From Verrucomicrobiota bacterium (GTDB taxonomy: Bacteria > Verrucomicrobiota > Verrucomicrobiia > Chthoniobacterales > JAFAMB01): a DNA stretch of 64,000 nucleotides. Position numbers and translations under genes: made by a program. Under the pieces are notes generated by a model. The model saw only the letters and a program-made list of their open reading frames with translations. It was not told where the DNA came from and made no database searches. Of the stretch, positions 1 through 59,417 are shown one piece after another. The stretch spans positions 1 through 64,000 of the forward strand of contig JAFAZK010000145.1 of NCBI GenBank assembly GCA_019239825.1, in the 5' to 3' direction. Position 1 is the first letter of the stretch, and every line of letters begins with the position of its first letter.

Positions 1-1740
1 CGATACTACAACCTCGGCAAAATCAATTTCGTCGGAAACCAGAGTTTCCCCGAGAAATCGCTCAACGATTACATGATCGGCACGACTCGAGCCCGCCTTT
101 CCCAATTTCAAAAGCAACTCCCCTTCGTACAGGCGGATCTCGAGACCGGGGTCGGCCTTTTAAAAAACTATTATATCTCTCAAGGGTTTCCCAACGTGCA
201 GATTGAGCCCTTGCGATATCAATTTGATGATGCCCTCGACAACGTCGATGTCACTGTCATCATCAAAGAGGGCCAGAAATTTGTATTCGGGACAATCAGT
301 TTTCCGGATGTCCCTGGTATTCCGCCCTCAGCTTTTCAAGCTAAGGTCATTGAGTTGACCCAGCCACCCAAACCATATTCGGACTCCGCTGTTACCGAGT
401 TACAACGTGATATTCTCTATATTTTAAAGCGATATGGTCATGTAACCGCTCAGGTATCACTCAACGCTGATATCGCTTCCGCAAAAGGCGGCGCGGTTCC
501 GGTTAAGGTCAATATCCAGCCCGGACCCGTCTATCAATTCGGGCGAATCGTGGTAAACCAACGGCCAAATTCCAGACTCAAACCGGACTTCCTGCCGAAT
601 CGTTTCCAGCCGCTAATGGGACAGACCTATAGCCCACTGAAGCTACAGGAACTCGATACGCAAATGATCACCACCGGATTGTTTGATTCTCTCGATTTTC
701 AAGAGACGCCGATGCCAGACGATACCGTTCAACTCACTCTCAGTCCGGTTGAGGCGAAACAAAAGTATTTCAGCATATTCGGAGGTTACGATACTTTCTA
801 CGGCGTTATTTTCGGCGCTAGTTTCTCCGATCGTAACGTTGGCGGCGAAGGTCACATCTTTTCCGCATCTGCAGAAATTACCAGTCGCGGACCACAAGGA
901 AAAATCTCCTACGAAGACCCTTGGTTTCTTAACAGTAACCTCGATTTCTTAACCCAGCTCGGAATCGACGATCAGAATCTGTACGGGTATACGTTTGTCG
1001 ATGAATACATTCGCGCGAATCTGACGGCAAAATACGGCAAGACCCTGACGACCGGAACCTCGGAATACCAGACCGGTATTTTCGTGCTACTCCGCAACGC
1101 AAATCTCAGCCAGATCGATATTACCCCGGAATCGTTAGTAGGACCGACTAGTTATGACCTGGTGTCGGTTGGGCTCACCCAGACCTTCGATCATAGAGAC
1201 AACCCTCTGAACCCTCGCAAAGGTTGGATTCTGGAGTTGGCTGGCTCCGATTCGGAGTTGTTGCGTAACTATGTTAATTACGTCACGCTCACAGAGCGGT
1301 TCTCTCTTTATATCCCGATAGGGCCAACCGTTCTAGCCGCGGGTGTACGATTCGGCGGAATCTTTCCATCCGAAGGAGGGACCCTAGGAATTCCTATCGA
1401 AGAACGATTCTTCAACGGGGGCGCCACCACCGTGCGCAGCTTCCTGGAACGGAAGCTTGGACCCAAGGACATAGGTAACAATCCTTTGGGAGGATTGACC
1501 CGCTCGGTTTTCAATTTAGAAGATGATTTTCCCATCTATGCCGGCATCATCGGCGCTGTATTTTTCGATTCCGGTGGTTTGGGGAGTTCTCCATTCGACA
1601 ATTTCAGCACCGGCGTGGGATTAGGATTACGCTACAATTTGCCTGTAGGTCCTATCCGAGTCGATTATGGTATCAACCCAGCGCCGCGGAAAAACGACTC
1701 CTTCGGCGCGTTTAACCTGAGCTTCGGTTTCGCGTTTTAA
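1..1740 (+). CDS. Omp85/BamA-TamA family outer membrane assembly protein, 5' truncated
   Basis: The reading frame is open from base 1, so the gene begins before the window; the first internal ATG is at 73. The visible 579 residues begin with a POTRA-type strand (YYNLGKINFVGNQ), followed by two more POTRA-like segments to about residue 240. A membrane beta-barrel then runs to the C-terminus. The barrel carries a VRSF variant of the conserved VRG(F/Y) loop-6 motif, late strands reading GPIRVDYGINP, and a terminal aromatic residue (FGFAF). Proteins of this family insert beta-barrels into the outer membrane (BamA) or help translocation (TamA). Which one this is cannot be settled without the N-terminus. 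It is convergent with pstB. Confidence 0.9.
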   Translation, partial: RYYNLGKINFVGNQSFPEKSLNDYMIGTTRARLSQFQKQLPFVQADLETGVGLLKNYYISQGFPNVQIEPLRYQFDDALDNVDVTVIIKEGQKFVFGTISFPDVPGIPPSAFQAKVIELTQPPKPYSDSAVTELQRDILYILKRYGHVTAQVSLNADIASAKGGAVPVKVNIQPGPVYQFGRIVVNQRPNSRLKPDFLPNRFQPLMGQTYSPLKLQELDTQMITTGLFDSLDFQETPMPDDTVQLTLSPVEAKQKYFSIFGGYDTFYGVIFGASFSDRNVGGEGHIFSASAEITSRGPQGKISYEDPWFLNSNLDFLTQLGIDDQNLYGYTFVDEYIRANLTAKYGKTLTTGTSEYQTGIFVLLRNANLSQIDITPESLVGPTSYDLVSVGLTQTFDHRDNPLNPRKGWILELAGSDSELLRNYVNYVTLTERFSLYIPIGPTVLAAGVRFGGIFPSEGGTLGIPIEERFFNGGATTVRSFLERKLGPKDIGNNPLGGLTRSVFNLEDDFPIYAGIIGAVFFDSGGLGSSPFDNFSTGVGLGLRYNLPVGPIRVDYGINPAPRKNDSFGAFNLSFGFAF

Positions 1741-1760
1741 TCCGAAAACCCATTTTCGGA
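1741..1760 (+). terminator. hairpin directly after the Omp85 stop codon
   Basis: TCCGAAAA and TTTTCGGA form a perfect 8-bp stem with a 4-nt loop immediately after the stop codon. The T-run lies inside the stem rather than after it, so this is only a candidate intrinsic terminator. Confidence 0.4.
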
Positions 1761-1773
1761 TCTGGAGATCATC

Positions 1774-2050
1774 AGTTCCGTAGGAGCGAAATATTTATAG
1801 CCACCGCCACCCACAGGTCTTAGCTCCGTTAGGAGCGGCATCAAAAATAACGCGGCTACGACAAACCATGTTCCGAACCAGATGCGCTCCTACGGAGCCG
1901 CTTTAGCTACCACGGGCACCACCGGCAAAGCCCAAATTCAATCCACCACAGCAATAGCCAGATCACTATGCTGCGTTGAGAATTGCGATTTCAACGCTGA
2001 ACGATTCAGCGGATCAGATTTCCAGCTCCGTAAGAGCGCAATATTTGTAG
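1774..2050. repeat. cluster of R-family short palindromic repeats
   Basis: This gap holds four copies of a short repeat whose core AGCTCCG-TAG-GAGCG is palindromic and is followed in full copies by an AAATCTTTATAG-like tail. Copies lie at 1774-1800, 1822-1842, 1881-1898 (inverted) and 2024-2050. The last copy ends three bases before the pstB stop codon. Further copies occur near 7967-8066, 22631-22776 and 30853-30879. The organisation resembles REP sequences. No gene is supported in the gap. Confidence 0.75.
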
Positions 2051-5137: not shown

Positions 5138-5438
5138 AAGTTTGGTGGGGCGAGGCTCCCTTTTGGCCCCAAGAGGTTATCGAAGCCGCCGATGTGCTTA
5201 TTCCCAAGGTTTTGCTAGGACGGAAGACTCGCCGAGCCGGGATTTGCAGTGCGGCCGCGGATGAGCGGACAATCCGACTAGTTTACCTCACCATCTCTCC
5301 AGGCCGACCGAATGTAGCTGCAAAACGTTGACCCGCGGCTCGGCGCGTCCAGTGACCTTACAGGACCAGGTAACTCTATAGGGCTCAATTCTCTGCAGCC
5401 ACTTACAGGACGATCGGGAGCCTCGCCCCACCAAACTT
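5138..5438. repeat. family A nested-palindrome element, copy A1
   Basis: The 301-bp element is bounded by perfect 23-bp inverted arms (5138-5160 and 5416-5438) containing TTTGGTGGGGCGAGGCTCCC. An inner inverted pair GCCGAGCCG/CGGCTCGGC lies at 5231-5239 and 5336-5344, about 93 bp from each end, so the element is symmetric. The right end abuts the stop codon of the small lipoprotein gene at 5439. It has no convincing coding sequence. Related copies are at 27115, 28501 and 43133. Confidence 0.85.
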
Positions 5439-7966: not shown

Positions 7967-8066
7967 CTCCGCTGGAGCGAAGCGGCAGTTTCCGATTGAT
8001 GTCGCTCCGACGGAGCTGGTCTCGTTTTTTCGCCATGGGCTATAAAGATTTCGCTCCTACGGAGCT
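7967..8066. repeat. three R-family repeats in the gap before the two-component genes
   Basis: Palindromic copies lie at 7967-7985, 8001-8018 and 8041-8066; the last is a full-length inverted copy with the TATAAAGATTT tail. The preceding 7740-7960 contains a small inverted repeat (GCGCCTG/CAGGCGC, near 7928-7955) and no supported gene. Confidence 0.7.
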
Positions 8067-8076
8067 GGGAGCCTTC

Positions 8077-12746: not shown

Positions 12747-15700
12747 ATGTCGCGCTTTGCTATCCGCTATCCCTACCTGATCATCGTTTTCTGCCTCGTC
12801 ATCACGGTGGTCGGCGTCAGCAGCCTCCTTCGCATGCCGGTCGATCTGTTCCCGCCGATCAACATTCCGGTGGTAGTCGTGGCAACATTTTACTCCGGCA
12901 TGCCACCACAGGATATCGAGAACGATATTACCGGCACCTATGAACGGTTTTTTACCTTGGCCAGCGGCATCGATCATATTCAGTCCCGCTCACTTCCCGG
13001 CGTAAGCCTGATTAAGGTTTACTTCCATCCGGGAACCAATGCCGATACTGACGTTACCGCGATTTCAAACCTGGCAATGGCGAACCTGCGCCGTTTACCC
13101 CCCGGCACGTTGCCTCCAGTCGTTCTAAAATTTGACGCTTCCAGCCTGCCGGTCTGTCTCATCACTTTGCGCGGAGAAGGCTTGAACCAAGCCACCCTGC
13201 ACGACCTCGCTCAATACAATGTCCGCAACCAAGTAGCCAGCACGCCCGGCTCTTCCGTACCTCAACCGTTCGGTGGCAAGGTCCGTCAGATCCAAGTCTA
13301 TATCGACCCACTTAAACTTCAGGCTTACCAACTCAGCCCGATGGATGTGGTGCAAAAGATCAATAACGCCAACCTCATTCTGCCGGCGGGCGATGTAAAA
13401 ATCGGGCCGTTTGACTACAATCTCTACACCAATAGTCAACTATCCAATGTAGAACGAATTAACGAAGTGCCGTTGAAGATGGTGGACGGCCACCCGGTAT
13501 TGGTTGCCGATGTTGGCCAAGCGAAGGACGACGCCGCCATCCAGACAAACATTGTTCGGGTCAATGGACAGCGCTCGGTCTATATCCCGGTACTGAAGTC
13601 AGGAGCCGATGCCAATACCATCGCGGTGGTCGACGGTATCAGAAGCGCCGTATCCCACCTGTTGGATATTCCTAACCAACTGCAAACCAATGTGGTCTTC
13701 GATCAGTCTGCCTTTGTAAAGACTGCTATCGATAACCTGATTCATGAAGGTCTTATCGGCTTGGTCCTGACTGGTTTGATGATTTTGGTCTTTCTGGGCA
13801 ACGCCAGAGCAACTCTGGCCGTGTTTCTCTCCATTCCACTCTCGGCGTTAGCCACCTTCCTGGTGCTCTATTTTGGAGGTAGTTCGATTAACGCCATGAT
13901 CCTGGGAGGACTAGCTTTAGCCTTTTCCCGGTTGATCGATAACTCAGTTATCGTCTTGGAAAACATCTTTCGTCATATGGAGTTGGGCGAAACTCCGGAA
14001 GTGGCGGCTGAGAATGGCGGTAAAGAAGTCGCCCTGGCGGTTTTGGCGGCCACGCTAACAACTGCCATCGTGTTCTTCCCGGTTACCTTTCTCTCCGGGG
14101 TAAGCGTATTTCTCTTTTCGGCGCTGGCTTCCGCCGTGGTGTTTTCCTTATTCGCTTCCTATTTCGTTGCGATGACGGTCGTGCCGCTCTTTTGCGCCAA
14201 ACTCATTAAAGCGCATCAAGTGCATGCAGCGTCCGGCGAAGCTCATCACCAGCCGCCCAAAGGTTTGTGGAACGAGTTTAACTGGTGGTTCAATAATAAG
14301 TTCCATTCATTCCTCGATCGCTTCGACCGCGTACAAGGATTCGCGCTCGCGCGACCGGCCGCCACGGTCATTGGCATTCTGGGAATCTTTTGTTTGAGCT
14401 TTACCCTTTTACCCGCACTCGGACTCGCCTACTTCCCCAGGACCGACCCGGGCCAGTTCGTTATCAATTTAAAGGCGGCCACCGGAACCCGGGTTGAAAT
14501 CACTGAACGAGAGGTAGCCAAGACCGAAGACCTGATCAAAAAGATCGTCTCACCGAGTGACCTGCGGTTAGTAGTTTCGAACATTGGCGTGACCCCAGAC
14601 TTATCATCGATTTACACGAGCAACTCGTCCACCCATACCGCGTATGTGCAGGTTAGTTTGAACGAGGATCACAAGGTCGGTAGTTACGAATATATCAACC
14701 GGGTTCGGGCCGCCATGCAAAGGGAGTTGCCCCAGTTGTCGACCTATTTCCAGACCGGCGGTCTTGTGGACGCTATTCTCAATCAAGGGCTCCCCGCGCC
14801 CATCGACGTGCAAGTTAGTAGCAACGATCTAACCGAGGCCGCGAAGATTGCCGCCAACATCCGGCAACAAGTCAGCCGAATACCGGGCGTGGCAGATACT
14901 TATATTCCGGAAGATGTTGATGCTCCCTCTCTGCAGCTGGGAATTAATCGATATTATGCCCAGGAGATGGGGCTAAGTGAACATGAGGTTGTCAGTAATA
15001 TCATCACGTCGCTGACGTCTGATGGCATGATATCGCCAAGTTATTGGGTCGACCCAAAAAGCGGTAACCTCTACATGCTAACGGTTCAGTTTCCTGACAA
15101 CACCGTTCGATCCCTGGAAGACCTAAAGATGATGCCGGTCCGCTCTTCCGACCAGAAGAACACGACCAACTTAGGCAATCTCACTGATGTCAAATTGATC
15201 GAATCCCCAACCGAAGTAGATCACTACAAGCTACGCCGGGTTATTGACGTTTATGTATCCACTAAGGGTGAAGAGCTGAGCCGGGTCGCGGATGCGGTTA
15301 ACCAGGTCGTCAACCACGTTGAAAAACCGGGAAATGTGGTGATTTACGTGCGGGGCATTGTCGGCGCCATGAACTCGTCCATGCAATCCTTCGGGCTGGG
15401 CCTGCTCTTGTCGTTGGTATTAGTTTACCTAGTGCTGGTCGCACAGTTTCGATCGTTTGTGGACCCGTTTCTGATCCTGTTAGCCGTCCCTCCCGGGATA
15501 ACCGGCGTACTGTTAATCCTGACTACAACTGGGACTACCTTGAATATCATGTCACTGATGGGTCTCGTGATGATGGTAGGAATCGTGGTTTCTAACAGCA
15601 TCTTGATTGTCGAGTTCACTCATCGCCTGATCGCCGACGGCATGCCGTTACGAGAAGCGGTTCAATTCGCAGTCCGCGTCCGGCTTCGCCCGATCTTGAT

Positions 15701-16030: not shown

Positions 16031-16310
16031 CTGGAGGGGGGCCGCTTTCGCCTGAGCTTAGTTGAACGCGCGTGGTTTACACGCTGCGCTTGCCTGGGAT
16101 GGCGAGGTGTTAGCAGGCGGCTCCCGCAAACGGCTCCTGACGCACCTAGGCACGCCGCATCTTGTCCCAACCAGGCAACGATGTTGGGTAAATTCACACG
16201 CTGGGTAATTCGCGGGAGCCGCCTGCTAGCCATAGTATCTGGACAGGCATGGCGCTGGGCTCCTAATACATCTGCTCGTCGTTCCCCAATCCAAAGCGGC
16301 TCCCCTCCAG
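16031..16310. repeat. family B nested-palindrome element, copy B1
   Basis: Outer arms 16031-16048 and 16293-16310 match CTGGAGGGGAGCCGCTTT with one mismatch. Inner arms 16111-16127 (TAGCAGGCGGCTCCCGC) and 16212-16228 are a perfect 17-bp inverted pair. The 280-bp element lies between the pump and channel genes and inside the longest open frame of the channel gene. Confidence 0.85.
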
Positions 16311-17933: not shown

Positions 17934-18236
17934 CTGGAGGGGAGCCGCTTTGCAATGTGGCAGCTCTGTCGGCTGTTAGCGGGCGGCTCCCGAGAACGTC
18001 TCTACGCGTCGCAGTTCAAGCGGCTGTGTCCTACTCGACTCCAATAAGCGAACACGTTGGGCAACACGGCACGCTAGGCGATTCCCGGGAATTACCAGCG
18101 TAATGTTCTGTCCATCGCGTCGATGCGATTGCGATTGAGACCGCGGCCGATAGAACTGCTACACGTTGAGACGTTCCCGGGAGCCGCCTGCTAACAATCG
18201 ATAGAGCTCCCACATTGAAAAGCGGCTCCCCTCCAG
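17934..18236. repeat. family B nested-palindrome element, copy B2
   Basis: Outer arms 17934-17960 and 18210-18236 are inverted with one mismatch in 27 bp. Inner arms at about 17975-18002 and 18168-18195 match with two mismatches in 28. The arms sit symmetrically about 41 bp from each end. The short ORFs within are translations of the palindrome. The rest of the gap (17834-18322) holds nothing else I recognise. Confidence 0.88.
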
Positions 18237-22630: not shown

Positions 22631-22776
22631 CGCTCCTAACGGAGCTGGTCGCTCTCTACATTACCCGTTGCTATAAAGATTTCGCTCCTCCGGAGCTAGG
22701 CATGGGATCGGCTGAATCAAACCAGAACGAAATCAAGTTTTTCAACGCCAGCTCCGGAGGAGCGAAATCTTTATAG
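22631..22776. repeat. R-family repeats including a perfect inverted pair
   Basis: A short copy lies at 22631-22648. Full copies at 22671-22697 and 22750-22776 are perfect 27-bp inverted repeats of each other. The right copy overlaps the end of the HAD gene and supplies its stop codon. The remaining 22254-22630 contains the upstream region of the LamB-like gene and no supported gene. Confidence 0.8.
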
Positions 22777-23544
22777 CGCCGGACAGATCCTACGGAGTGC
22801 TTCGGCGACGCCGTCTCCACCAGCTTGTTCTGCTACGTAACCGCCGTGACATCTAACCCTTTCTTTGACCTCATCCACACTGTTGGCGGGACAAGCCAAA
22901 TGACGGGCGATCTCAGAGTCGAGCATCGGTAAATCGTTGAAGTTGTCCCCTGCGGCAAAAGTCTCATGCGGTTCAACTCCTAGATGAGTTTGCAGCGCTT
23001 TGAGTACAGACCCTTTATGATAAAACGAGTGGCAAAACCGGAGATAAATGGAGTTTCTCTGGAAAGACAAATTTGCGACCGGCCGGCATTTCAAGCGCAG
23101 GTATTCTACGGTGCGGTCCATCTCATCGTTGTTTTGCGCAATCAATCCAACCATCCGCCCATGCTCCCGATAGGAACGCACCTGTCGCTCATTCGTGATG
23201 TAAGCCTCGATCTCAGCCAAAAGTATAGCGGCCTCGATGTAGAGTTCCTCGTGATCTTGGTGGCATCGTTCATTCCATTCGGATAACGGTTCCCACCCTT
23301 GTTTCGTCCTGCAAAAGACCTCTCGTTCGGTCGTCAGTGCAAAGTCGGGTATCGCAGGGAAAAGTTCCATCCCTTGATCCACCAGGGCCAAATTGCGCCC
23401 CGTGTTAATAGCCAGCAGCGCGCCTCCTTTTCTCAGCGCGGCCAGACAACGCACTAATTCTTCACTAACCGCCGCTTTCCCATCCAACCAAGGCCCGACC
23501 ATGGTGCCGTCGAAATCTAAGCTGAGAAGGCGGAGGTTAGTCAT
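22771..23544 (-). CDS. HAD-superfamily phosphatase, Cof/IIB type
   Basis: The 257-residue protein has HAD motif I (LSLDFDGTMVG, nucleophile Asp), motif II (LLAINTGRN), motif III Lys (HKGSVLKALQ) and motif IV (FAAGDNFNDLPML). The cap between motifs II and III is of the C2B type found in Cof-like sugar or cofactor phosphatases. The final codons and TAA stop are contributed by an R-family repeat, so the C-terminus may have been trimmed. No operon partner is evident; an inverted micro-repeat separates it from the gspF gene upstream in sequence. Confidence 0.88.
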   Translation of the reverse strand: MTNLRLLSLDFDGTMVGPWLDGKAAVSEELVRCLAALRKGGALLAINTGRNLALVDQGMELFPAIPDFALTTEREVFCRTKQGWEPLSEWNERCHQDHEELYIEAAILLAEIEAYITNERQVRSYREHGRMVGLIAQNNDEMDRTVEYLRLKCRPVANLSFQRNSIYLRFCHSFYHKGSVLKALQTHLGVEPHETFAAGDNFNDLPMLDSEIARHLACPANSVDEVKERVRCHGGYVAEQAGGDGVAEALRRICPAL

Positions 23545-24992: not shown

Positions 24993-25019
24993 ACTTAGCT
25001 CCCTTTCACTGGTCGCTCT

Positions 25020-25188
25020 GTGAGAGGTGAGAAGTGAGAAGTGAGAGGTGAGAGGTAACGACTGCAGGGGCTCTATTCGTAATTCCGAGCTTACGGATCA
25101 TAAAAGTTCTTCGGTACGATTCGTTTCGTTCGGTTTGAACGGCTGGCACGTAGAACCACCAATCACCTCTCACGTCTCACTTCTCACG
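25020..25188. repeat. inverted micro-repeat hairpin (GTGAGAGGTGAGAAG type)
   Basis: Left arm 25020-25060 consists of 7-8 bp GTGAGAGG/GTGAGAA units; right arm 25161-25188 is the inverse (ACCTCTCACGTCTCACTTCT). It occupies most of the gap between gspF and gspE and would form a long stem in a shared transcript. Confidence 0.75.
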
Positions 25189-27114: not shown

Positions 27115-27409
27115 CTTTGGTGGGGCGAGGCTCCCTAACGGCCCTATCATGTTAACGAAACCACAACAGTATTCTCGATCCCAACCTTCTGCTATGCCAA
27201 GACCCGTGCCGAGCCGCGGGTATCAGCGTGGCTGCGGATAATCGCCCGACCGCATAATCCACGCTGCCATTCTCGCACCAAGACCATTGCTGCGATGCTC
27301 AGACTCACGGCTCGGCGCGTCTATTGGCCTAACAAGATCAGGTGCCGTCATCGCGGTGGATTTCTTCGCAAACACGATAGAAACGTCCGGGAGCCTCGCC
27401 CTACCAAAA
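27115..27409. repeat. family A nested-palindrome element, copy A2
   Basis: Outer arms CTTTGGTGGGGCGAGGCTCC (27115-27135) and the inverse at 27389-27409 differ at one or two bases. Inner GCCGAGCCG/CGGCTCGGC arms lie at 27208-27216 and 27308-27316. The element is about 295 bp. The preceding 26892-27114 shows a weak hairpin near 26964 but no gene. Confidence 0.82.
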
Positions 27410-27439
27410 GAGAGTCCGCCCCCAAAGAGCGCTTCGCGT

Positions 27440-28339
27440 CTATCTAGCAGTCCCCATCAGCGCCTGGCGCATCGCAGCTAATGGAACGGGTTGGCCAAAC
27501 CAGTGTTCAAAGGCAAAAGCGCCTTGATGCAGTAACATTAGCCGGCCATCCACTGCCGGGACCCCGTTCTGTTCTGCCCAGGTTACCAGCGGCGTGTCTC
27601 CCTGCGGACGATAAACCATATCGAATAAGCGATGTTCTGGACGCAACCACTTCGGGTCCCAATCCAGGGGACCGTCCTTGAGTCCTAAAGATGACGCATT
27701 GATGATTAAGTCGGCTTCCAGGAAAACCCGTCGAAGTTGATGGAAATCCCAAAAGGTCACACCGGAATTCGAGACCAGTTCGCGACGAAGTCCGTCCATT
27801 TTTTCGACAGTACGGTTAACCAGCAAAAGCCTTTCCGGTCTCAGATTCGCCAAGAAACGGGCCGACGCCTGCCCTGCCCCGCCCCCGGCTCCTAGCAAGG
27901 CAATCTTGGATTTAGCTAATTCGACCCCAAAAGCATCGAACAGCGCGGACTGGAGACCGCGACCGTCCGTGTTGAATCCGATCAGCTTACCATCCTGGTT
28001 CACCACCGTGTTGATTGCGCCTAAGGCTTCGGCTTCGGAGTCAAGACGATCAACCAATCTATATCCGGCAATTTTGTGAGGGATGGTCAGATTCCAACCG
28101 ATAAATCCCAGCTTTCGCAAACATCTGAAAGCTGTCTCTAGCTGAGCCGGCGAAACCAGAAGTCGATCGTACCGGTAAGGTAGCCCACGGGCTTCCAGAG
28201 CCGCATTCTGCATCGGTGGTGAAAGCGAATGCTCCACGGGATCACCTAGCACCGCGAGTTGAAACCCTGCAGTGTTAGCGCCTGCTAACAACGCTTGTAG
28301 GCTCTCCACGGTCCACGCCACAGAAGATTTAAGATCCAC
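27440..28339 (-). CDS. aroE: shikimate dehydrogenase
   Basis: The protein (299 residues from the annotated GTG) catalyses NADPH-dependent reduction of 3-dehydroshikimate to shikimate. Visible motifs are the substrate site VEHSLSPPMQNAA, catalytic Lys in NLTIPHK, Asn/Asp in NTDGRGLQ, the NADP-binding glycines LLGAGGGAGQAS and the closing MLLHQGAFAFEHWFG. The conserved core starts near AGFQLAVLGDPVEHS. The upstream codons run directly into a CACAGATTAC micro-repeat, so the GTG at 28339 is uncertain and a GTG closer to the core (for example 28321) is possible. Confidence 0.93.
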   Translation of the reverse strand: MDLKSSVAWTVESLQALLAGANTAGFQLAVLGDPVEHSLSPPMQNAALEARGLPYRYDRLLVSPAQLETAFRCLRKLGFIGWNLTIPHKIAGYRLVDRLDSEAEALGAINTVVNQDGKLIGFNTDGRGLQSALFDAFGVELAKSKIALLGAGGGAGQASARFLANLRPERLLLVNRTVEKMDGLRRELVSNSGVTFWDFHQLRRVFLEADLIINASSLGLKDGPLDWDPKWLRPEHRLFDMVYRPQGDTPLVTWAEQNGVPAVDGRLMLLHQGAFAFEHWFGQPVPLAAMRQALMGTAR

Positions 28340-28364
28340 AGATTACACAGATTACGCAGATTAG
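28337..28364. repeat. micro-repeat at the aroE start (CACAGATTAC units)
   Basis: Three imperfect tandem units of CACAGATTA(C) run from 28337 to 28364 and overlap the annotated start codon of aroE. No inverted partner is seen nearby. Confidence 0.7.
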
Positions 28365-28404
28365 AAGGCATCGAAAGGCAAGAAAAAGTCGCTTATCCCC
28401 AAGC

Positions 28405-28841
28405 GGAGGGGCGTTGCATTCCGCTTTCGCAGCTAAAACGGATGTCGACGCTCGGAAAGTGTTTTCAGGTTTGTCGTGCGGAGAGACGCGACGCCCGGGA
28501 ACTTTGGTGGGGCGAGGCTCCCGAACGTTATATGGTGTTTGCGAAGAATCCACTGTGGTGGCGCCGCCTGATCTTGTTAGGCCGATCGACGCGCCGAGCC
28601 ATGGGTCTGAGCGTTGCAGCACCATTTAGCTTTGCCGCGAGATTTGGTGGCGTGGATTAGGCGGTCGGACGGTTAGCCGCAACCACACTGAATACCCGCG
28701 GCTCGGCACGGGTTTTGGCATCCGGGGGCGCTGGGATCGAGTACACTTGCGGCTTCGTTAACATCATAGGGTGATAAGGGAGCCTCGCCCCACCAAAGTC
28801 GACCCAATTTTAGCTGCGAAAGCTGAATGCAACGCCTCTCC
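28405..28841. repeat. family C inverted arms enclosing a family A element
   Basis: Arms 28405-28438 and 28808-28841 share CGTTGCATTC and CTTTCGCAGCTAAAA and match in inverted orientation with two mismatches in 34 bp. They enclose copy A3 and form a compound palindrome of about 437 bp between aroE and gltX. Confidence 0.75.
28501..28799. repeat. family A nested-palindrome element, copy A3
   Basis: Perfect 22-bp inverted arms lie at 28501-28522 and 28778-28799 (core TTTGGTGGGGCGAGGCTCCC), with inner arms GCCGAGCC/GGCTCGGC. Length is 299 bp. It is nested inside the family C arms. Confidence 0.85.
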
Positions 28842-28897
28842 GGTCTGGGATCAGCGACACTTTCGGGGCTGCGGATCTTAATTTCGGATTTCGGGAA

Positions 28898-30338: not shown

Positions 30339-30619
30339 CTGGAGGGGAGCCGCTTTTGCCCGTCCTAAGTTGAACGGACGTTCTTGGAGAAATGCGTGTA
30401 CCAGACTGAGCGTGTGCCTGGCAGGCGGCTCCCGCTAACGTCCTGAGATCTCGCCACCGATCACATGGTCGTTCGGTTCGAAAGATCAAACACCGTTCGG
30501 TTAATTTACGCGTCGAGACGTTTCCGGGAGCCGCCTGCTAAAGGACTATGAGTTGTGCTACGATTGTTCGCCTTGTCCTGCCGGCGGTTCCGCCACATTC
30601 AAAAGCGGCTCCCCTCCAG
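30339..30619. repeat. family B nested-palindrome element, copy B3
   Basis: Perfect 19-bp outer arms CTGGAGGGGAGCCGCTTTT lie at 30339-30357 and 30601-30619. Inner arms GGCAGGCGGCTCCCG and CGGGAGCCGCCTGC lie near 30420-30435 and 30525-30538. Length is 281 bp. It fills the gap between gltX and the DUF6600-like gene. Confidence 0.87.
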
Positions 30620-30701: not shown

Positions 30702-32507
30702 ATGTTGCCGCGCGTGCGAAAACTCCTGGCCCTGGTTTTTCTGATCGCGATTTCTCTCGTGGGGTCGGTAGCCAACCCGTCGCCAACCCCGACTCAACGT
30801 CCCCTCCCCCTGGCAATCGGCAAAAGCCCTTCGAACGACCCCAGACCGGCTTCTACAAAGATTTCGCTCCTACGGAGCTGGACCGTCATCCGGGGCGTTA
30901 AGTCAGCGGTCCCACCACGGCCTGACGTTTTCCGCGTTCTGTTATCGCAGACGCGTTCGTTGTCACTCCAAAACTCCATTGCTCCAACACTCCAATACTC
31001 CGTCACTCCTCCTCCAATCCACTCCTCCACGGTATACGAGGAATCCCCAGTCCCAAACCAGGCTGACCTCAACGACTCCTACGACGTATTCTACCACCAA
31101 CTATCTGCTGATGGACATTGGCTCTTTGCGGAGAATTTCGGGTATGTCTATCAGCCCAAAGTAGCCGAGAAAGACCCGAATTGGCGCCCTTACACGAACG
31201 GGCATTGGGAGGCGACAGACCGCGGTTGGTATTGGGATACCGACGAGCCGTTCGGTTGGGCTACCTATCACTATGGACGCTGGGCAAACATCGACGGCAC
31301 CGGATGGGTTTGGACGCCCGGGATCGATTGGTCGCCAGCTTGGGTCTCATGGCGAATCTGCGACAACGGTTTTGTCGGCTGGGCTCCCCTACCGCCGGAA
31401 TGTCCCCGACCTAGCGATGCCGTCCCGATCGGGAGTTGGTGCGATTCCTATGCCGATATCGGACCCGAGGCGTTTTGTTTTTTGCCGTTCAACGCGTGGT
31501 TCAAACCAAGCTATGTCGGGTTATTTGCTCCGGCATCTCAGAATCGGGAACTGATTAACGCGAGCCGTAATGTTACCAACATTTCGGCAAGCAAAACGAC
31601 GATCAGCGACTTTGGTCCCCGCCCAGACTTCATTGCCCAAGAAACGGGACAAGAAGTTAAGACCTATCAACTTCATTACTCTGAAGTCAGGGGACAACAT
31701 AATTTCTCGAGGTCCATCAACGGCAATCTGCTGAATGTCGAGGGCCCTGCGGTCAAGCTGAAGGCGAATGCCACTAAGGTGCCCACGGTCATAAAGACAA
31801 TCGTAAGGCCTGCCGTCAATAAGGGCTGGAACGGTTTGACCAAAGAAGACATCGACGGTGTGCATCAGAAATATGCTTCGGAGGCGCACATCCCGAGACA
31901 TCTGCCAAATAAGCCAATCGAGCGGGTCAATCTGGTGCCAAGCGCAACCCCAGCGGTGGCCCGGTCAGCCAGTGATCAGAAACAAAAAGAACCCAAGGAG
32001 CACAAGGCGACCGCGAACGCGAGCCCTCAAAAAGAGACCAAAGAAAAGACGGCAACCGCCTCAGCCCACAAGAAGACCGCGAAGCATAAAACGGCCTCCG
32101 AATCGGAGGACGAAAGCGGTTCGAAGGGAGAGAGCAAATCGAAGGTAAAATCAAAGACGGCTAAGGCATCTAAGGAGACTCAGGATACTGACGAATCTAA
32201 GACTCCAAACAAGAAGACGGCCAAGAGTGGCAGCGCTAAGAGCGACGGCCAGTCAAAGAGCACAAAGACCTCGAAGAGCTCGGGCGGATCGAAGGGCGAA
32301 GATTCCGGGGCCGAAGGCTCGAAGAGCAGCACTGGCTCGAAAGATGAAGGGTCGAAGAGCGGTTCGAAGAAAAGTTCGAACGGTGAAGACTCCAGGGGCG
32401 ATGGGTCCAAGAAAAGCGGAAGCTCGAAGCGTGAAGGACCTAAGAGTGAATCGACGAGCGAAGGCCCGAAGAGAAGCCAGAAGAAGTCTTCAGACGAAAA
32501 AGACTAA
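30702..32507 (+). CDS. secreted DUF6600/YXWGXW-like protein with a long Lys/Ser-rich tail
   Basis: The start at 30702 (MLPRVRKLLALVFLIAISLV) gives a signal peptide; the longer frame to 30555 would begin in repeat B3. The 601-residue protein has a Trp/Gly/Tyr-rich central domain (GHWEATDRGWYWDTDEPFGW, YGRWANIDGTGWVWTPGIDW, FVGWAPLPPECP) of the DUF6600 kind. About 190 residues of low complexity rich in Lys, Ser, Thr, Gly and Glu follow. Between the signal peptide and the domain, residues 51-60 are encoded by an R-family repeat and about 89-110 by an ACTCC micro-repeat, so this linker seems to tolerate insertions. Function is unknown; the strongly basic tail may bind nucleic acid or surface polymers. 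Confidence 0.8.
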   Translation: MLPRVRKLLALVFLIAISLVGSVANPSPTPTQRPLPLAIGKSPSNDPRPASTKISLLRSWTVIRGVKSAVPPRPDVFRVLLSQTRSLSLQNSIAPTLQYSVTPPPIHSSTVYEESPVPNQADLNDSYDVFYHQLSADGHWLFAENFGYVYQPKVAEKDPNWRPYTNGHWEATDRGWYWDTDEPFGWATYHYGRWANIDGTGWVWTPGIDWSPAWVSWRICDNGFVGWAPLPPECPRPSDAVPIGSWCDSYADIGPEAFCFLPFNAWFKPSYVGLFAPASQNRELINASRNVTNISASKTTISDFGPRPDFIAQETGQEVKTYQLHYSEVRGQHNFSRSINGNLLNVEGPAVKLKANATKVPTVIKTIVRPAVNKGWNGLTKEDIDGVHQKYASEAHIPRHLPNKPIERVNLVPSATPAVARSASDQKQKEPKEHKATANASPQKETKEKTATASAHKKTAKHKTASESEDESGSKGESKSKVKSKTAKASKETQDTDESKTPNKKTAKSGSAKSDGQSKSTKTSKSSGGSKGEDSGAEGSKSSTGSKDEGSKSGSKKSSNGEDSRGDGSKKSGSSKREGPKSESTSEGPKRSQKKSSDEKD

Positions 32508-33016: not shown

Positions 33017-33340
33017 CTAGAGGGAGCCGCTTTTGACTGTTGCTCGGAACCTGAGCTGACCGGGCAAATAGGCATTGTACGGCCGAGACGTTTCCCTGGC
33101 AGGCGGCTCCTGGGAACGTCCCACAAAATGTTTCACCTAGTGACCTGTCGGCGAAATAACATAGCCTTCGCGGACAGGTCACTAGTCGCGCGGCCGGTCG
33201 GAAACAATCGACGGCGGTAGATTGTAAGGGCGTCAGGGCCGATTTCGGGAGCCGCCTGCTAAGCACACGCCTACGCCGCAAACGCCGGGTTTCAGAAATT
33301 TGCGTGCAAACGGGCTCGGGTAAAAGCGGCTCCCCTCCAG
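33017..33340. repeat. family B nested-palindrome element, copy B4
   Basis: The left arm 33017-33034 is a slightly diverged CTAGAGGGAGCCGCTTTT; the right arm 33322-33340 is the standard inverse. Inner arms lie at 33097-33120 and 33245-33261. A third central pair CTAGTGACCTGTC/GACAGGTCACTAG lies at 33138-33150 and 33173-33185. Length is about 324 bp. Confidence 0.82.
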
Positions 33341-33378
33341 CATCCCCAACCCGATACGCGGGTGCAATTCCAACTCGG

Positions 33379-33468
33379 CGCAGTACTCCAGTACTCCAGT
33401 ACTCCATCACTCCATCACTCCGCGTGGCCGGATTCGAGGACGAGGACGACGACGAGTACGAGAACGAA
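33379..33468. repeat. micro-repeats upstream of the Pup-ligase-like gene
   Basis: AGTACTCC/ATCACTCC units (33379-33421) are followed by CGAGGACGAGGACGACGACG-type units (33437-33468). The same ACTCC type occurs at 30966-31029 and 38398-38432. The open frame continues through them to 33304, but the translated product is repeat-derived. Confidence 0.7.
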
Positions 33469-37155: not shown

Positions 37156-37343
37156 GTGCCTAGAGTAAAGCAGTAAGCAGTAAATAGTCGATAGTAGCTA
37201 GAAATTACCGTAACCAATAGACGAGTTAGAAGAACTAGGAAAATCAGTGGTAGTAAAACAGGCAGTCGTCTGCCGGCTCCTCCTAACTCCTGAGCTGCTC
37301 ACTGACTACTGCTTACTGTTTACTGCTTACTGCTTAGAGCCCC
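37156..37343 (+). repeat. inverted micro-repeat hairpin directly upstream of pncA
   Basis: Left arm 37156-37198 (AAAGCAGTAAGCAGTAAATA) and right arm 37292-37343 (TACTGCTTACTGTTTACTGC) are inverted. A weaker inner pair (GAGTTAGAAG/TCCTAACTC) lies between them. The right arm ends 2 nt before the pncA ATG, the same arrangement as at pncB with unrelated unit sequence. Confidence 0.75.
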
Positions 37344-37997: not shown

Positions 37998-38454
37998 TGC
38001 GGATCGTCCTAACATACCGGATGATCGGGACGACAGGCATCCGCCGCAGATCCTGCGCGCGCTTCAGCAGCAGCGCAGTATGGTGTTCGGGAAGCCGATT
38101 GTGCTTGATCTGCCCGGGTCCAATTTACTAACCTTTCCTCTGTCGAGGCTGCGGTTCAGCTCTCGTCCGGTCGATACCTCCGGGAAGGGTGGTCATTAAG
38201 CAGGACGCGAACAGATAAAATTTTATACCCGCTTGATATGGCGAATTGTGACTTCGAAGCAGCCGGAAAAGAGCGCAGACCTGGGCGCGCGGCTGGAAGC
38301 GATCGCTTGAGTAAAATTAATCAAAGCACCAATGCACGCTGAAAGAACTTGCAACCGGCTGCCACGCAATCCCCGGCGAGATCAATCGCAAAAGACCAGT
38401 ACTCCACCACTCCAAAACTCCATCACTCCGGCTCCGAGCCGGAGCGCTATCTTC

Positions 38455-43132: not shown

Positions 43133-43390
43133 TGGTAGGGCGAGGCTCCTCTCTATGGTGGGGCGCGGCTCCCGAAGAATCCTACACTTGGTGCGAAGGA
43201 ATCGACGGTGAACTTCCAAATAGCCATTGCTAGGCCTGAAAACTCGCCGAGCCGTGGCCTATCGCGCACCACGGCTCGGCGCAACTCTTAGGCCTGGCTC
43301 ATTGATCGGTTGGCGTTCGTACTATTTACCGCTGGTGGAACGATGGGCTCTACGGAGCCTCGCCCCACCAAATTTAGCCTCGCCCTACCA
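43133..43390. repeat. family A nested-palindrome element, copy A4 (doubled ends)
   Basis: The outer arms are doubled: TGGTAGGGCGAGGCT (43133-43147) pairs perfectly with 43376-43390, and a second TGGTGGGGC-type end at 43157 pairs with 43355-43371. The inner arms GCCGAGCCGTGG and CCACGGCTCGGC (about 43246-43257 and 43269-43280) are a perfect pair. Length is 258 bp. The right end lies 4 bp from the stop of the next gene. Confidence 0.8.
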
Positions 43391-45733: not shown

Positions 45734-48700
45734 TCATTTAATCTCCTCGAGCTTCTTCAGCAGCAAATGTGCGATCTCCTCTTCGCTCAAGTCATCAACC
45801 GGCTGACCGGATGACGGAGCCCTCTCAGGATCCACTTGCGGCTCGCTAATTTCGGTCTTCGATTCAGGGGCGAATTTCAGAGCCTCGCAGAGGATATAGT
45901 CGGTCAGCGCTCTGATGTTTGGATAGTTAAAGATCAGCGTGGAAGGAAGTTCTTGGCCTAAGCTACTTTCCAGCCGACCTTTTAATTCGACCGCCATGAG
46001 AGAATCCAAGCCCAGGTCGAAAAGACCTTGCTCCAAGTCGATCTCGCGTGAGGGATGGAATCCTAGAACGCTGGCCACCAGGGAACGCAAGTGCCCGATC
46101 ACTATCTCTCGGCGGCGAACTGGCGACGCGTTTTGTAGTTCCTGGGTCAGATTCGATTTTGGCGCCGTAGATTTTTGTAGTGGAGCTCTTTGGTGTTCCG
46201 GAGAATATCGGCGTTGAATCTCAGCGAATAGAGGACGCCTGCGCCGTGCTTCGTAGACGCCTCGCAATGTATTCCAATCGACGGACGCCACGATGCCGGA
46301 GGTTCTATCAGCCGAGATAAGCCGCTCCAACGCGGTTAGTGCCCGGTCACAGGGCATCGGACGCAAGCCGGCGCGTTCGAACTCCTCTTTGTCCGTTTTA
46401 GATGCGACCCGCATTTCCTCCCAAGTCCCCCAGTTCACAGATAACGCTCGAAGACCGCGCTTCCGACGCCAATGGGCCAGCATGTCGAGCGCCTGATTCG
46501 CGGCCGCGTAGTGACCTAAACCAGCCGCTCCCCACAAACCTGTGGTGGACGAAAAGAGCACGAAAAAGTCCAGCTCCATACCGAGGGTGAGTCGGTTGAG
46601 CACCCATGCACCCAGCGCTTTTGCCCGGCACATCTGTTGCATTGCTGCCAGATCTAGATCGCGGATAGAACGACCCGTCATTTCTACGGCGCAATGGGCG
46701 ATTCCTCGAAGCGGATAATCTTCTGTGGCGACACGATTCAAGATCTGTCGCATCGCGTTTTCATCGGCTACATCGGCTCTCGCGACGGTGATTCTTGTAC
46801 CCAGTTTTTCCGCTTTGACTATCGCCTCGATAGCTTCGCGATGCGGGTCGTCCACAGGCAAATCCGGCCATAGGGTCCGGTCCGGGAAATCACGGCGCGA
46901 AACCAACACCAAATGACGGGCGCCCTTTACAGCCATCCAATTCGCGATACGCAGCCCCAACCCGCCCAGCCCACCAGTGATCAGATAAGTTCCGTCACCG
47001 CACAGGAAAAGAGGCTCCGCCGCCGGTTCCTCGGCGCGCACCAATCGGGGCACGAGACGCTCACCGTTTCGATAGGCTATGGCGTCTTCCTCGCCGGCAT
47101 GTTTGATCTCGCGCCAGATGGCAACTGCCGATTCTTGCGGCGACGCATCAGGATCAAGATCAACGATGGAGCCCAACTGGCTGGGATTTTCCAAGGAAAG
47201 AACGCGCCCGAGTCCCCAGGTTAGAGCTTGGATTGGCTGACACACCTCAGTATTCGTGCCGCCTTTCGAAGAGATCAACTGTCCGCCCTTCGTGGCTAAC
47301 CAAACACGGGCATCGGACCCAGAGGTCGCTGCGAAGAGCGCTTGCGCGGTATGCAGCACTCCTGCGCCGATGCGTTGTTGGGCGGCTTCCCAAGCGACTG
47401 CCGTTGTCTCGACCGAAAGTTCCTCGTCCATCGGCCACAAGTTCAAGACACCTTTCAGCGGAGCCAGGCAATGCGCACTCGCGTCCAAAAGTAAGCGCTG
47501 GAAATCACTTGGCCGCAACGGATTGACGGTTGCCCTGTACCCCGATCCAAACTGGTATTCTTCGGCCTGTAAAACGAGAACCGATTTTTGCCCCTCTTTT
47601 GCGAGCAGATCTGCGATTTGTTCCCCTATCCCTTGGTTATCAGCGAGAACTAGCCACAAGCCGCCAAGCGCGATTTCGGTTTCCTGACTATCGATTCTGA
47701 CCGGCTTGCGGCCAAGCAAGACCGCCTGCTGAGCCATTTCAATGTTTCCAGTCGAGGAGTCTGTAGTCGTCTCAAGTCCCATTTCCTGGAACAACGTGGT
47801 CCACTGACCGGCTGTAAGCAGAGGGGAATCGGAGCGCAAAGTGGCATCTTGGAATCGCCACCAGCCGTCAGTCATGCCGAACGTCAAATCGACCCATCGC
47901 TGTCGGAGTGTTGCTTCCAGCAGAATCAAAAGGCCGCCAGAAGCCAGGAGGCTAACGGTATATCCGAGTGATGTGCGGAGATCGCACGTGGCATGCAAGG
48001 CATTGGCCGCGATAACCACATCGAACGACTGCTCTTCGAAGCCCTGCTCACCAGGCGGCTTCTCGATGTCCAGAAGTTGATAGCTGACGAACGGATGGTT
48101 GCGGAATTCATCGCGCGCACGTGCCAGAAAGAGAGGAGAAACGTCGCTGAAAACATATTGTGTGCGTTCAGCAGAGAGGTGCGGAAGCAGGAATGATGTC
48201 GTTCCGCCAGTCCCCGCACCGACTTCGAGGATCCGAATCGGGCGATTTTTGGGCGCTTTCTCAGTTGCCGCGACCAACACTTGCCGGACGACAGTGTTTA
48301 AGGCGCGCGCGAACGGCGAGCGACGATAGAGAGCATTTGCAGTATCAAAGTCGCCACCTGGGAAAAGCAGTTGTAGCGGATCGCAAGTTCCACGTAGAAC
48401 CTCATCCAGCCGGTCTGCGCATCTCGCGGTCAGCGTGATTTCGGCGGAACAGGCCGGGAATTCTTGTTTCAACCGATAGGCTTCGGACTGTAGATCGGCG
48501 AATTGCAACTCTGGACATTTGCGTACGATCCAGCGATCGCCGTCGCGAGTTAGAACACCTTCCTCGGACAAGACACCGAGCAGCCTTTCGAAGAGGCGCC
48601 GCTGAGTTGAAACGATGCCTAGCCGCCCAGCCAATTCTTGCGTGGTGAAGTGGTCACCTGAAGAATACGGCCAACCCATTCGCAAAAAGGCCCGACAGAT

Positions 48701-51700
48701 AAACGCGCCACTGAGATCCTCTAGTTGTTCGATCAACGCACCGTAAATCGACAAACCTTCCGCCGCAGAAATCGCCGACAGGTCTCCCCTCGCCTTTTCG
48801 GCGAGTAATCCGGGTATCGGAATGAACTCGCTCGGAGAACTGACTGCGGCTTCCTTCAGCTCGATCGCGGCTGCCTGCTGCCTGCGCCACTCGATCTGGT
48901 AGAACCAGTTTTCGTCTTTCAACCCGGCGACACGGGCAATCGCCTCGCGGGGGGCACGTTTTAGTTGGAGTCCCAAGATTTCCGCGATGAGTCTACCGTT
49001 GTCGTCATAGAGCCGGATATCCGCGCCGAATGCCTCTCCAGTCGGGGCGAGAGGCGAGCGCAAGACGGCATGGTTCCACAATCGGCCGGGAGCAACCGAG
49101 TAAATAGTGAATCGCTCAAGGCCGATCAACAAGTAGCCGCAGTCAACGGTATCGGCGGGCAGTGCGGCACCTAACAAGTGAAAACAGGAGTCCAAGAACG
49201 CTGGATGGATCCGGTACGGTTCAGTCTCGACGGCCAAGCTATCAGGCAGGCGATTTTCGGCGATGGCCTCGCCATCACGCCGTCGGATGCTCGCGATCCC
49301 TCGGAATCGATCACCAAATTCGAGACCCAAAGGAATTAGCGACTCGTATAAAGAGATTGGATTTATTTCCTCCTGACATCGAGCCCACACCTCCTCGCGA
49401 TTCCAATTGGGTGGCGCTATCTCGGGAACCGGAATACCAATTTTTACTCGACCGGTGGCATTTGTGCGCCAAACGCTTTCTGTTTTTCCGTGTGCGGGTT
49501 CCGAGGTGTTCCGACTGCAAACTTGGAAGCTCACCCCGTCTTCGCCGGCCTCGTCCAAGATCAACTGCACCTTGTACGATCCGTCCTCCGGCAAGAAAAG
49601 CGGTTCGCGAACATGCAGGTTGGTTAACTCGCACGGCAACGATTCGGACCTGGCAAGATTGGCAACCGCAGCAGCGCCAGCTAATGCCATCTCTATGTAC
49701 ACCGGTGATGGCATCATCGGCCGGCCAAAGATTCGATGATCGTGAAGAAAGGCGGGATGTTCGACGCCCAGGTCGACTTCGAAAACTGCGCCGGGGATCG
49801 CCGGAGAATCGAGACGCTCTCCTAAGAAGGGATGGGCATTCCCGGTGTGAGACCTCGACTCCTGTTTCTTCCGCGAATTAACGGCGACACTCTCCTGGAG
49901 CCAAAATCGGCTGCGCTGAAAAGGATAAGTGGGCAGCGAGGCACGTTTACCAGCGAATGATGTTGGTATACCCGTCCAATCAAGATCTACTCCCTCAACA
50001 TACAGTGTAGAGACCGCCTCCAGAAGACTTTCCCAGTCTTGCTGGCCGCGATTCAAGCTAGAGGTCCAGACAACCTCGGCTTCCGGTGCTGTCGCCCGAG
50101 CCATTCCGGTCAGAACTGAGTGCGGTCCGATTTCGAGAAATACCGAGTGCCCAATCTTACGTAATGCACGGATGGAATCCGCGAATCGAACCGGATTTCG
50201 AATCTGACGGCGCCAATATTCTGGAGCCGACATCAGGCCCGGAGTAGCCAGTTCACCGGTTACGTTTGAAACGATGGGAACCAGCGGCTCGGATAACTGA
50301 ACGCTCGCAGCGACCCGTTGGAACGAGTCGAGAATCGGATCCATCGACTTGGAATGGAACGCATGAGAAACCGCGAGCGATCTAAACTGTACGCCTTCGT
50401 TCTTCAACTCCGCCAAGAGCCGATCAACCGCAACGGATTCGCCAGAAACGACAACGTTAGCGGGACCATTAGCACACGCAATCGCAACATCACTTCCTTG
50501 GGCGTCGATGGCCCGGGACACGCGGGATTCATCCGTGAAGATGGCCGCCATGGCACCTCCGGCGGGAAGAGAGCCCATTAGGCGGCCTCGTTCTGCAATG
50601 AGTCGGAGCCCATCCTCGAGACTGAACACTCCAGCGATGCAGGCTGCTACATACTCACCGACGCTGTGGCCGAGCACCGCGCCGGGTTCCAGGCCCCACG
50701 ATCGCCACATTGCTGCCAATGCATATTCAAGAGCGAATAGAGCCGGTTGGGTTAGTTGCGTCTGGTCAACTCGATGATCTGAGCGGCTGCCGTCGGCGAA
50801 CAGCGCCTCCAGCAACGGAATTTCCAGCAGCGGATTTAGAATTTCCGCGCACTTCTCCAACTCGCGACGGAAGACTGGCTGGGTCTCGAACAAGCCGCTA
50901 CCCATACCTGGATACTGCGACCCCTGCCCGGTGAACATGAAGACCACTCCGAGCGTTCCCGATTTTATCGAACGGCCGCTCCAAATTCCGGCGCTTTTTT
51001 GGCCAGATCGAAAAGATGCCAAACGTTCGCGTGCTTCTGATAGATTCTGCGCCAGTATTGCCAGACGATATTTGAAGTGGGAACGACCGGTAGCCCCGGT
51101 GCGGCAAACATCCACCAGGTTAAGGTCTGGGCTCTCATTGAAAAGTTGTTGGTATTTTCCAGCCAGCTCCAATAAAGCGGATTCGCTTCGAGCGCTTAAA
51201 ATCAGCAACTCTGGCGATGATAGATTGTCGAGGGTCCGGATGTTCTGAGCCTCAGGTAATACGCCACCGGTAGGAGGGTCGGACACGATTACGTGCGCAT
51301 TTGTTCCGCTGAATCCAAACGAGCTGACGCCGGCGATCCGTTGCCCGCGTTCCCGGGTCCACGGCGTAGGCGCGGTCGCTACCGCGATGGGCAGATCGCC
51401 CCAGTCAATATGCGGATTCAGTTTCTGTAGATGAAGGCTGGGCGGAACTTTTTCGTGACGGAGCGCGAGAATCGTTTTGATCAAGCCGGCGATACCAGCC
51501 GCTGACTCGGCGTGTCCGAAGTTCGTCTTCACCGAACCGATTCTTAACGGAGAGTTCAGACTGCGACCGGGACCGAAAACCTCCGCCAGCGCGTGCGCCT
51601 CGATTGGATCCCCAAGTGAAGTGCCCGTACCGTGGGCTTCGATGTAATCTACATCACCGGCCTCAAGACTTGCGTTGGCCAGTGCTTCTCGAATAACCGC

Positions 51701-58600: not shown

Positions 58601-59394
58601 TCGAACGTTTTGCACTTCCCGTCGGGCGCCAACATTCGTGCTCGAGACAATGCCGAAAACACTTCGGGTGAAAGAATGACATTCACCCCGCCGGCCAACG
58701 CCAGGTCGCATTGTTGATCGCGTAATCCCTGACACGCCAAATGGACCGCTACGAGCGAGGATGAACAGGCGGTGTCAACCGAGATGCTCGGGCCTTGCAA
58801 TCCCAGCGTATAAGATAACCGGCCAGAGGCGATGCTGTGCGCGATGCCAGACGCGTAATACATGTCCAGTAAGGCAGGGTCGCCCGATTCGAGCAGCAGT
58901 TGAGAGTAGTCGTTGCTGCAGACGCCGACATAAACACCCGTTTTGGTCTTTGCCAGATCCGCCGGCGATTGTCCTGCGTTTTCGAGCGCTTCCCAAGCCA
59001 CCTCGAGCAAAAGACGCTGCTGGGGATCCATGGTCAGCGCCTCCCTCGGCGAGATTTCAAAGAACTGAGGCTCGAAACGATCGACCTGATCCAAAAACCC
59101 GCCAAAACGAGTGGCGATCTTCCCTGGGCTATCCGGATTGGGGTCGTAATATGCGTCGACATCCCAGCGGTCCGAAGGGATCTCTCGGATTCCGCTCTCG
59201 CCCTGGTGGAGCAATTGCCAGAATTGTTCCGGGGTACTCGCACCGCCCGGTATCCGGCAGCCAACCCCGACAATAGCGATAGGTTCGTGCCTCTGTCTTT
59301 TGGCCGCAGCCAGCTCCGCCTGTAATTCTTCGATGGCGAGCAAGGCCCGCTTTAATGGCGAGAGTTCCGCCGATTTCGTGCTCATTGACGACAA
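52666..59394 (-). CDS. modular type I polyketide synthase, fully reducing KS-AT-DH-ER-KR-ACP (PKS-B)
   Basis: The 2242-residue single-module synthase opens with the docking segment [21 protein letters not shown] has Cys210 (DTACSSS) and [14 protein letters not shown] has Ser660 (GHSVGEY) and malonyl-type HAFHS. DH has His961 ([10 protein letters not shown]) and Asp1131 ([10 protein letters not shown]). A structural half-KR precedes the ER, whose NADPH loop is [11 protein letters not shown] at about 1633. KR has GGFRGVG, the B-type LDD motif ([11 protein letters not shown]) and Tyr1971 (SSYAAANAF). ACP has Ser2154 ([10 protein letters not shown]). The module should add a two-carbon unit reduced to methylene. 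The C-terminal docking tail ([14 protein letters not shown]) differs from the other synthases here. Confidence 0.94.
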
Positions 59395-59417
59395 ATTAAT
59401 AAAGGACGGTTTGGCGA

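Follow-up and report, generated by a model that had tools for sequence, protein, structure and literature searches.

The window, i.e., the whole 64,000-nucleotide stretch of a soil Verrucomicrobiota genome that was analyzed, harbors four copies of a nested palindromic repeat, termed family A. In each copy, inverted outer arms enclose inverted inner arms. The copies, and two additional outer motifs bracketing the fourth, lie at the following positions:

5138-5438, no strand assigned: element A1, long type; outer arms 5138-5160 / 5416-5438, inner arms 5230-5239 / 5336-5345
27116-27408, no strand assigned: element A2, long type; outer arms 27116-27135 / 27389-27408, inner arms 27207-27216 / 27308-27317
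28503-28797, no strand assigned: element A3, long type; outer arms 28503-28522 / 28778-28797, inner arms 28592-28601 / 28699-28708
43134-43149, plus strand: extra outer motif GGTAGGGCGAGGCTCC, bracketing A4 on the left
43154-43372, no strand assigned: element A4, short type; outer arms 43154-43173 / 43353-43372, inner arms 43245-43254 / 43272-43281, loop of 17 nt
43376-43389, minus strand: extra outer motif (AGCCTCGCCCTACC), bracketing A4 on the right

A search of the window with TTTGGTGGGGCGAGGCTCCC (up to 3 mismatches) yielded 8 matches, all of them at the four elements, as compared to 0.01 expected from shuffled sequences. Thus, the four copies proposed by the first-pass annotation were confirmed, as were the perfect 23-bp ends of A1, and inner inverted arms were located in all four. 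The window contained no Rfam match. A3 is enclosed by the arms of another inverted repeat (28382-28438 / 28808-28864). The closest sampled relative of A2 is A3, with 80% identity in inverted orientation. Since the two are mutual closest sampled relatives and flank one gene in inverted orientation, a local copying event is likely. This gene (ORF 27440-28339, within the span 27116-28797) resembles shikimate dehydrogenase.

Further repeats and genes share the window. A second nested-palindrome family, family B, with AGCAGGCGGCTCCCG and AAGCGGCTCCCCTCCAG boxes, occurs at 16031-16310, 17934-18236, 30339-30619 and 33098-33340; it has two-box ends like those of family A, with two spacings, of about 44 and 80 bp. 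The short GC-rich palindromes of family C (GCTATAAAGATTTCGCTCCTACGGAGCT) were seen at 1773-1802, 8032-8068, 22663-22782 and 30845-30879. Octanucleotide arrays of the CTCCAGTA / CTCCATCA type lie near gene starts (33377-33424, 38401-38430, and also 30951-31026). What looks like a polyketide synthase cluster occupies 45734-63842: three very large consecutive ORFs on the minus strand (2311, 2242 and 1474 aa), which have repeated segments in common.

The search was extended to the 6.67-Mb assembly. With up to 3 mismatches, the 19-bp end gave 386 matches (188 on the plus and 198 on the minus strand), as compared to 0 and 1 for the reversed control; family A thus has further copies in the genome. 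With up to 2 mismatches, 327 matches were obtained in the window's own genome, and 129 and 215 in two Verrucomicrobiota MAGs of the same genus. In total, this genome carries about 190 copies of family A. Inverted pairs are the main form: in 0.82 Mb of sampled contigs, 73 plus/minus end pairs were found versus 46 unpaired matches, about half of which were weak (4-5 mismatches). Most pairs measured 208-214 or 270-300 bp, giving two main size classes of about 211 and 287 bp.

Each half of an element runs from a near-invariant outer arm, TTTGGTGGGGCGAGGCTCCCGAACG, through weak boxes near 40 and 75 to the inner arm, CGCCGAGCCG. The tag is GTGG or GTAG, and in most of 102 copies the inner arm begins 86-87 bp after GGT on both sides. 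The inner arms enclose a loop of either 17-18 nt or about 95 nt. The spacer sequence drifts while its length is kept, and identity between copies outside the outer arms is about 65%. The middle of the elements had been described as not obviously conserved; this applies to the drifting spacers, but the weak boxes, GCGAAG at about 40 bp and TAGGCC at about 75 bp from the end, reappear in each half. Almost all copies are intergenic, with 2 of 57 classified copies inside a predicted gene, and no preference for the orientation of the genes around family A copies was found.

A comparison with other genomes related these ends to repetitive extragenic palindromes (REPs). A sister genus within the same family carries both motifs, outer and inner, as one unit: 3 nt apart, they form a 25-bp GTAG-type REP, GGTAGGGCGAGGCTCC-GYC-CGAGCC. 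This compact REP frequently forms inverted doublets about 95 bp long, which are ordinary, classic REPINs. In the window's genus, the REP halves are almost always separated by a spacer of about 70 nt. The split form gave 254, 19, 52 and 98 matches in four genomes of this genus, where the compact form was nearly absent (0, 1, 0 and 1 matches), and no match in the other 93 genomes searched. Single sequences of the compact type were also present in one Planctomycetaceae MAG and two viral contigs. Since the compact form is more widely spread, it is presumably ancestral. Because the sister genus joins both motifs, the nested palindromes can be read as the two halves of a REP with a loop expanded by about 70 nt, and because these halves lie so far apart, the small REP hairpin has been lost in the window's genus.

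Next, family A ends were linked to a transposase gene. A fragment resembling a REP-associated tyrosine (HUH) transposase (RAYT) adjoins an A half-element in a related MAG. It pointed to element L293, which was reached by tblastn with RAYT proteins followed by a protein search. L293 is a 752-bp element on contig 327 of the window's own genome, outside the window (1152-1903 of the locus, about 14415-15166 of the contig). It reads outer end (1152), inner arm (1237, i.e., 85 bp beyond the outer end), ORF (1324-1782), inner arm (1811) and outer end (1888-1903). Thus, an encoded transposase with matching ends, which the first-pass annotation had proposed to look for, is present in the same genome: the two-box ends of about 105 bp surround an ORF in L293 and occur without a gene in about 190 genome copies. 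The ORF is intact, begins with GTG and encodes 152 residues. Its product passes the NCBIfam equivalog REP_Tyr_transpos (82.1 bits versus a cut-off of 80), matches the solved TnpA-REP structure 4er8 (E 9e-10) and contains both an HUH motif (HLH) and YMMMNP. With 12.7 versus 23 bits, it remains under the cut-off of Pfam Y1_Tnp. A search with this Pfam family missed L293 and revealed three other RAYT-like genes in the own genome, none flanked by A; likewise, none of the genus-wide Y1_Tnp matches was flanked by A. No cargo or genes were found between A ends 0.3-5 kb apart in the sequence first scanned.

The L293 gene has one close match in genome G000, the next best being 37% identical. Orthologues lie beside uvrA (assigned from its sequence) in genomes G002 and G003, so this place is kept in three species. 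Compared with one orthologue, dN was 0.084 and dS 1.22 (dN/dS about 0.07), and two of the species differ at 60% of the synonymous sites in the RAYT gene. The copies in G002 and G003 both carry a small frameshifting deletion, which may reflect decay or assembly error. As the contigs in these two genomes begin within the gene or at its start, both element ends are visible in one genome only. Together, these sequences indicate that the transposase is vertically inherited as a single copy.

RAYT genes were also seen near other repeats. Family B units symmetrically flank a RAYT gene in this genome (L298), in G001 (L299) and in G002 (L300). L071 of this genome and L140 of G002 hold RAYT genes flanked by family C. 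At L296 (925-1428), a RAYT with 56% identity to the A transposase precedes the REP GTAGGGATGAGCTCC, which also brackets some A copies, e.g., at L045 and L085. Another palindromic family, GGTAGGGCGAAAATCTCGGCGCGC, is related by its tag (L099 1327-1550, L187 6791-7041, L080 2016-2120) and is enclosed in L080 by another pair of end motifs.

Taken together, family A is best read as a non-autonomous, REPIN-like population spread by a RAYT (probability about 0.8). Two altered REPs of the GTAG/GTGG type, in inverted orientation, would make up each element; its outer arm (GGTGGGGCGAGGCTCC) and inner arm (GCCGAGCCG) would represent the halves of one ancestral REP whose hairpin loop expanded to a spacer of nearly fixed length, about 70 nt. 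In single-stranded DNA, outer arm would pair with outer arm and inner arm with inner arm. The RAYT would then recognize the tag and the arms at their fixed spacing, excise the strand and reinsert it elsewhere without target duplication. That the L293 transposase acts on the A copies is suggested by the shared ends, and single-strand chemistry is suggested by analogy to IS200/IS605 and RAYT enzymes. Family A has very probably been mobilized as a RAYT/REPIN system, and it may still be active. This reading is supported by analogy, because family B is accompanied by a separate RAYT between B ends. The earlier suggestion of a non-autonomous mobile element is therefore strengthened by L293, with the same split ends and a transposase inside, while transposition itself is deduced.

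With respect to insertion, no target duplication was found at family A copies, direct matches between flanks being at chance level, and clean empty sites free of any other insert were sought between species and not found. In 63 slot comparisons between species, some slots being counted twice, A was present in both in 28, a half in 9 and nothing in 26. Orthologous pairs were defined by position, orientation and similarity, and 10 of 13 positional pairs were kept after retesting against a null. In these 10 pairs, the outer 17-mers were 92.6% and the inner 10-mers 86.5% identical, as compared to 72.9% for spacers and 73.5% for loops; the arm values are biased upward because the set was picked by recognizable ends. 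The gap between arms and spacers is large despite this bias, given that 60% of synonymous sites have changed. Thus, copies differ in presence or absence between species and their arms evolve slowly in place, being either selected there or renewed.

Many copies are surrounded by further inverted layers. The 150-bp flanks were mutually inverted beyond the 95% null in 38 of 115 copies, as compared to 1 of 115 with direct repeats. Oppositely oriented heptanucleotide arrays, or other REPs, often make up these layers. In some orthologous slots (L099 vs. L152, L058 vs. L080), an outer layer is common to both while the centre differs. Insertion at a palindrome axis, or template switching in hairpins, could be the source of such layers. 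Heptanucleotide arrays also occur as inverted pairs in the window (25017-25061 with 25157-25188, and 37168-37196 with 37301-37342). A scan of 1.74 Mb yielded 103 arrays of period 7, as compared to 20 of period 6 and 14 of period 8; 61 of the 103 had an inverted partner within 450 bp and 6 a direct partner (control 3), and their unit sequences are highly variable.

With several conserved boxes at a fixed spacing, the long inverted ends also resemble the multi-site ends of some transposons. Family A might accordingly represent MITEs of a DDE-type transposon with multi-box terminal inverted repeats of about 100 bp, and the RAYT gene would have landed inside one copy. This is improbable: besides the missing target duplications and the lack of other cargo between A ends in the initially scanned sequence, L293 carries a gene of exactly the class predicted by REP-derived ends, the place of this gene beside uvrA is kept in three species, and the compact relatives are plain REPs. 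Slightly more credit, although it is still unlikely, can be given to the idea that the copies were founded by past transposition and are now maintained by the host, e.g., for protein binding, chromosome organization or mRNA ends, with the arms kept by selection. The intergenic placement fits this idea, as does the identity of 92.6% for outer 17-mers versus 72.9% for spacers, with 60% of RAYT synonymous sites different, although this orthologous set is biased to recognizable ends. However, for two thirds of the slots, the species do not have an intact copy in common, and a preference for gene orientation was lacking. A RAYT origin would agree with maintenance by the host as well; the two readings part only over what preserves the arms.

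The possibility that the elements are genes for a structured RNA, with the fold rather than the sequence conserved as the first-pass annotation had considered, is the least probable of these. The long hairpin showed strong predicted folding (z of -5.5 and -13.9), which is explained by the arms being inverted. In a covariation alignment of 19 short-type copies, most arm pairs never varied, and covariation on the proposed stems was only slightly above that of shuffled alignments (16 of 500 reached it). The few compensatory changes, which had been suggested as a check, were seen chiefly along the edges of the outer stem, at positions 17-26 and in the first flanking bases. Pairing of the spacers between halves was 49.7% versus 48.2% after shuffling, close to expectation at most positions. 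Because covariation is weak and the spacers barely pair, RNA structure is not the main constraint, and beyond the arms a conserved fold found no support. Within the halves, lateral hairpins (GGCCT/AGGCC) that had been noticed by eye showed neither covariation nor consistent pairing. A bidirectional terminator was rejected on account of AAA instead of a T-run past the stem and no preference for convergent genes. Integron attC sites were dropped on placement, since the copies are dispersed and do not separate cassettes.

The RAYT/REPIN reading places family A among known systems. REPINs and their RAYT have been described in Pseudomonas fluorescens as groups GI-GIII (PMC3116915, PMC8049555). Family A resembles them in having a pair of REPs in inverted orientation, tagged ends that are near-invariant, an interior that drifts in sequence but not in length, intergenic placement, doublets as the main form and a single-copy, vertically inherited RAYT. 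In contrast to REPINs of roughly 70-110 bp, the A elements measure 211-287 bp, each REP is split by the spacer of about 70 nt, there are two loop classes, and the RAYT is enclosed by the split ends, each present as a complete copy. TIRtrons (TIRYT; PMC3733652) are RAYT-like genes flanked by long terminal inverted repeats. A RAYT-like gene within long inverted ends and a repeat family built from those ends are common to both. The published TIR repeats are described as moderately abundant and mostly unrelated to REPs, unlike the roughly 190 A copies with ends derived from a GTAG-type REP. GTAG-tagged REPs, which include those of Opitutus terrae in Verrucomicrobia (PMC3733652), resemble family A in the GTAG/GTGG tag and the small GC-rich stem; the split form is not known to be described among them. 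MITEs, too, are short non-coding elements that end in terminal inverted repeats and have a coding relative sharing these ends; family A differs in the missing target duplication and in a transposase of the HUH type instead of the DDE type. Regarding the earlier view that no named family has this form, the ends are altered GTAG-type REPs and the system is of the REPIN/RAYT or TIRtron kind, but the split form appears to be new: judged against the open-access literature and a few individual papers, a split REP at fixed spacing is a new variant.

A more general proposal is tentative and on balance rather doubtful: RAYTs might be able to use split REP ends, with two boxes at a fixed distance in place of a single small hairpin, and the elements might settle repeatedly at existing palindrome axes, so that slots would become concentric hairpins whose centres are exchanged between species. 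To our knowledge, how RAYTs recognize and copy REPINs is poorly understood. Given naturally split and compact REPs in sister genera and a transposase with the same ends, it could be tested which parts (tag, outer arm, inner arm or spacing) a RAYT needs. In addition, the conservation of the arms in place at 60% synonymous divergence bears on whether REPIN populations serve their hosts.
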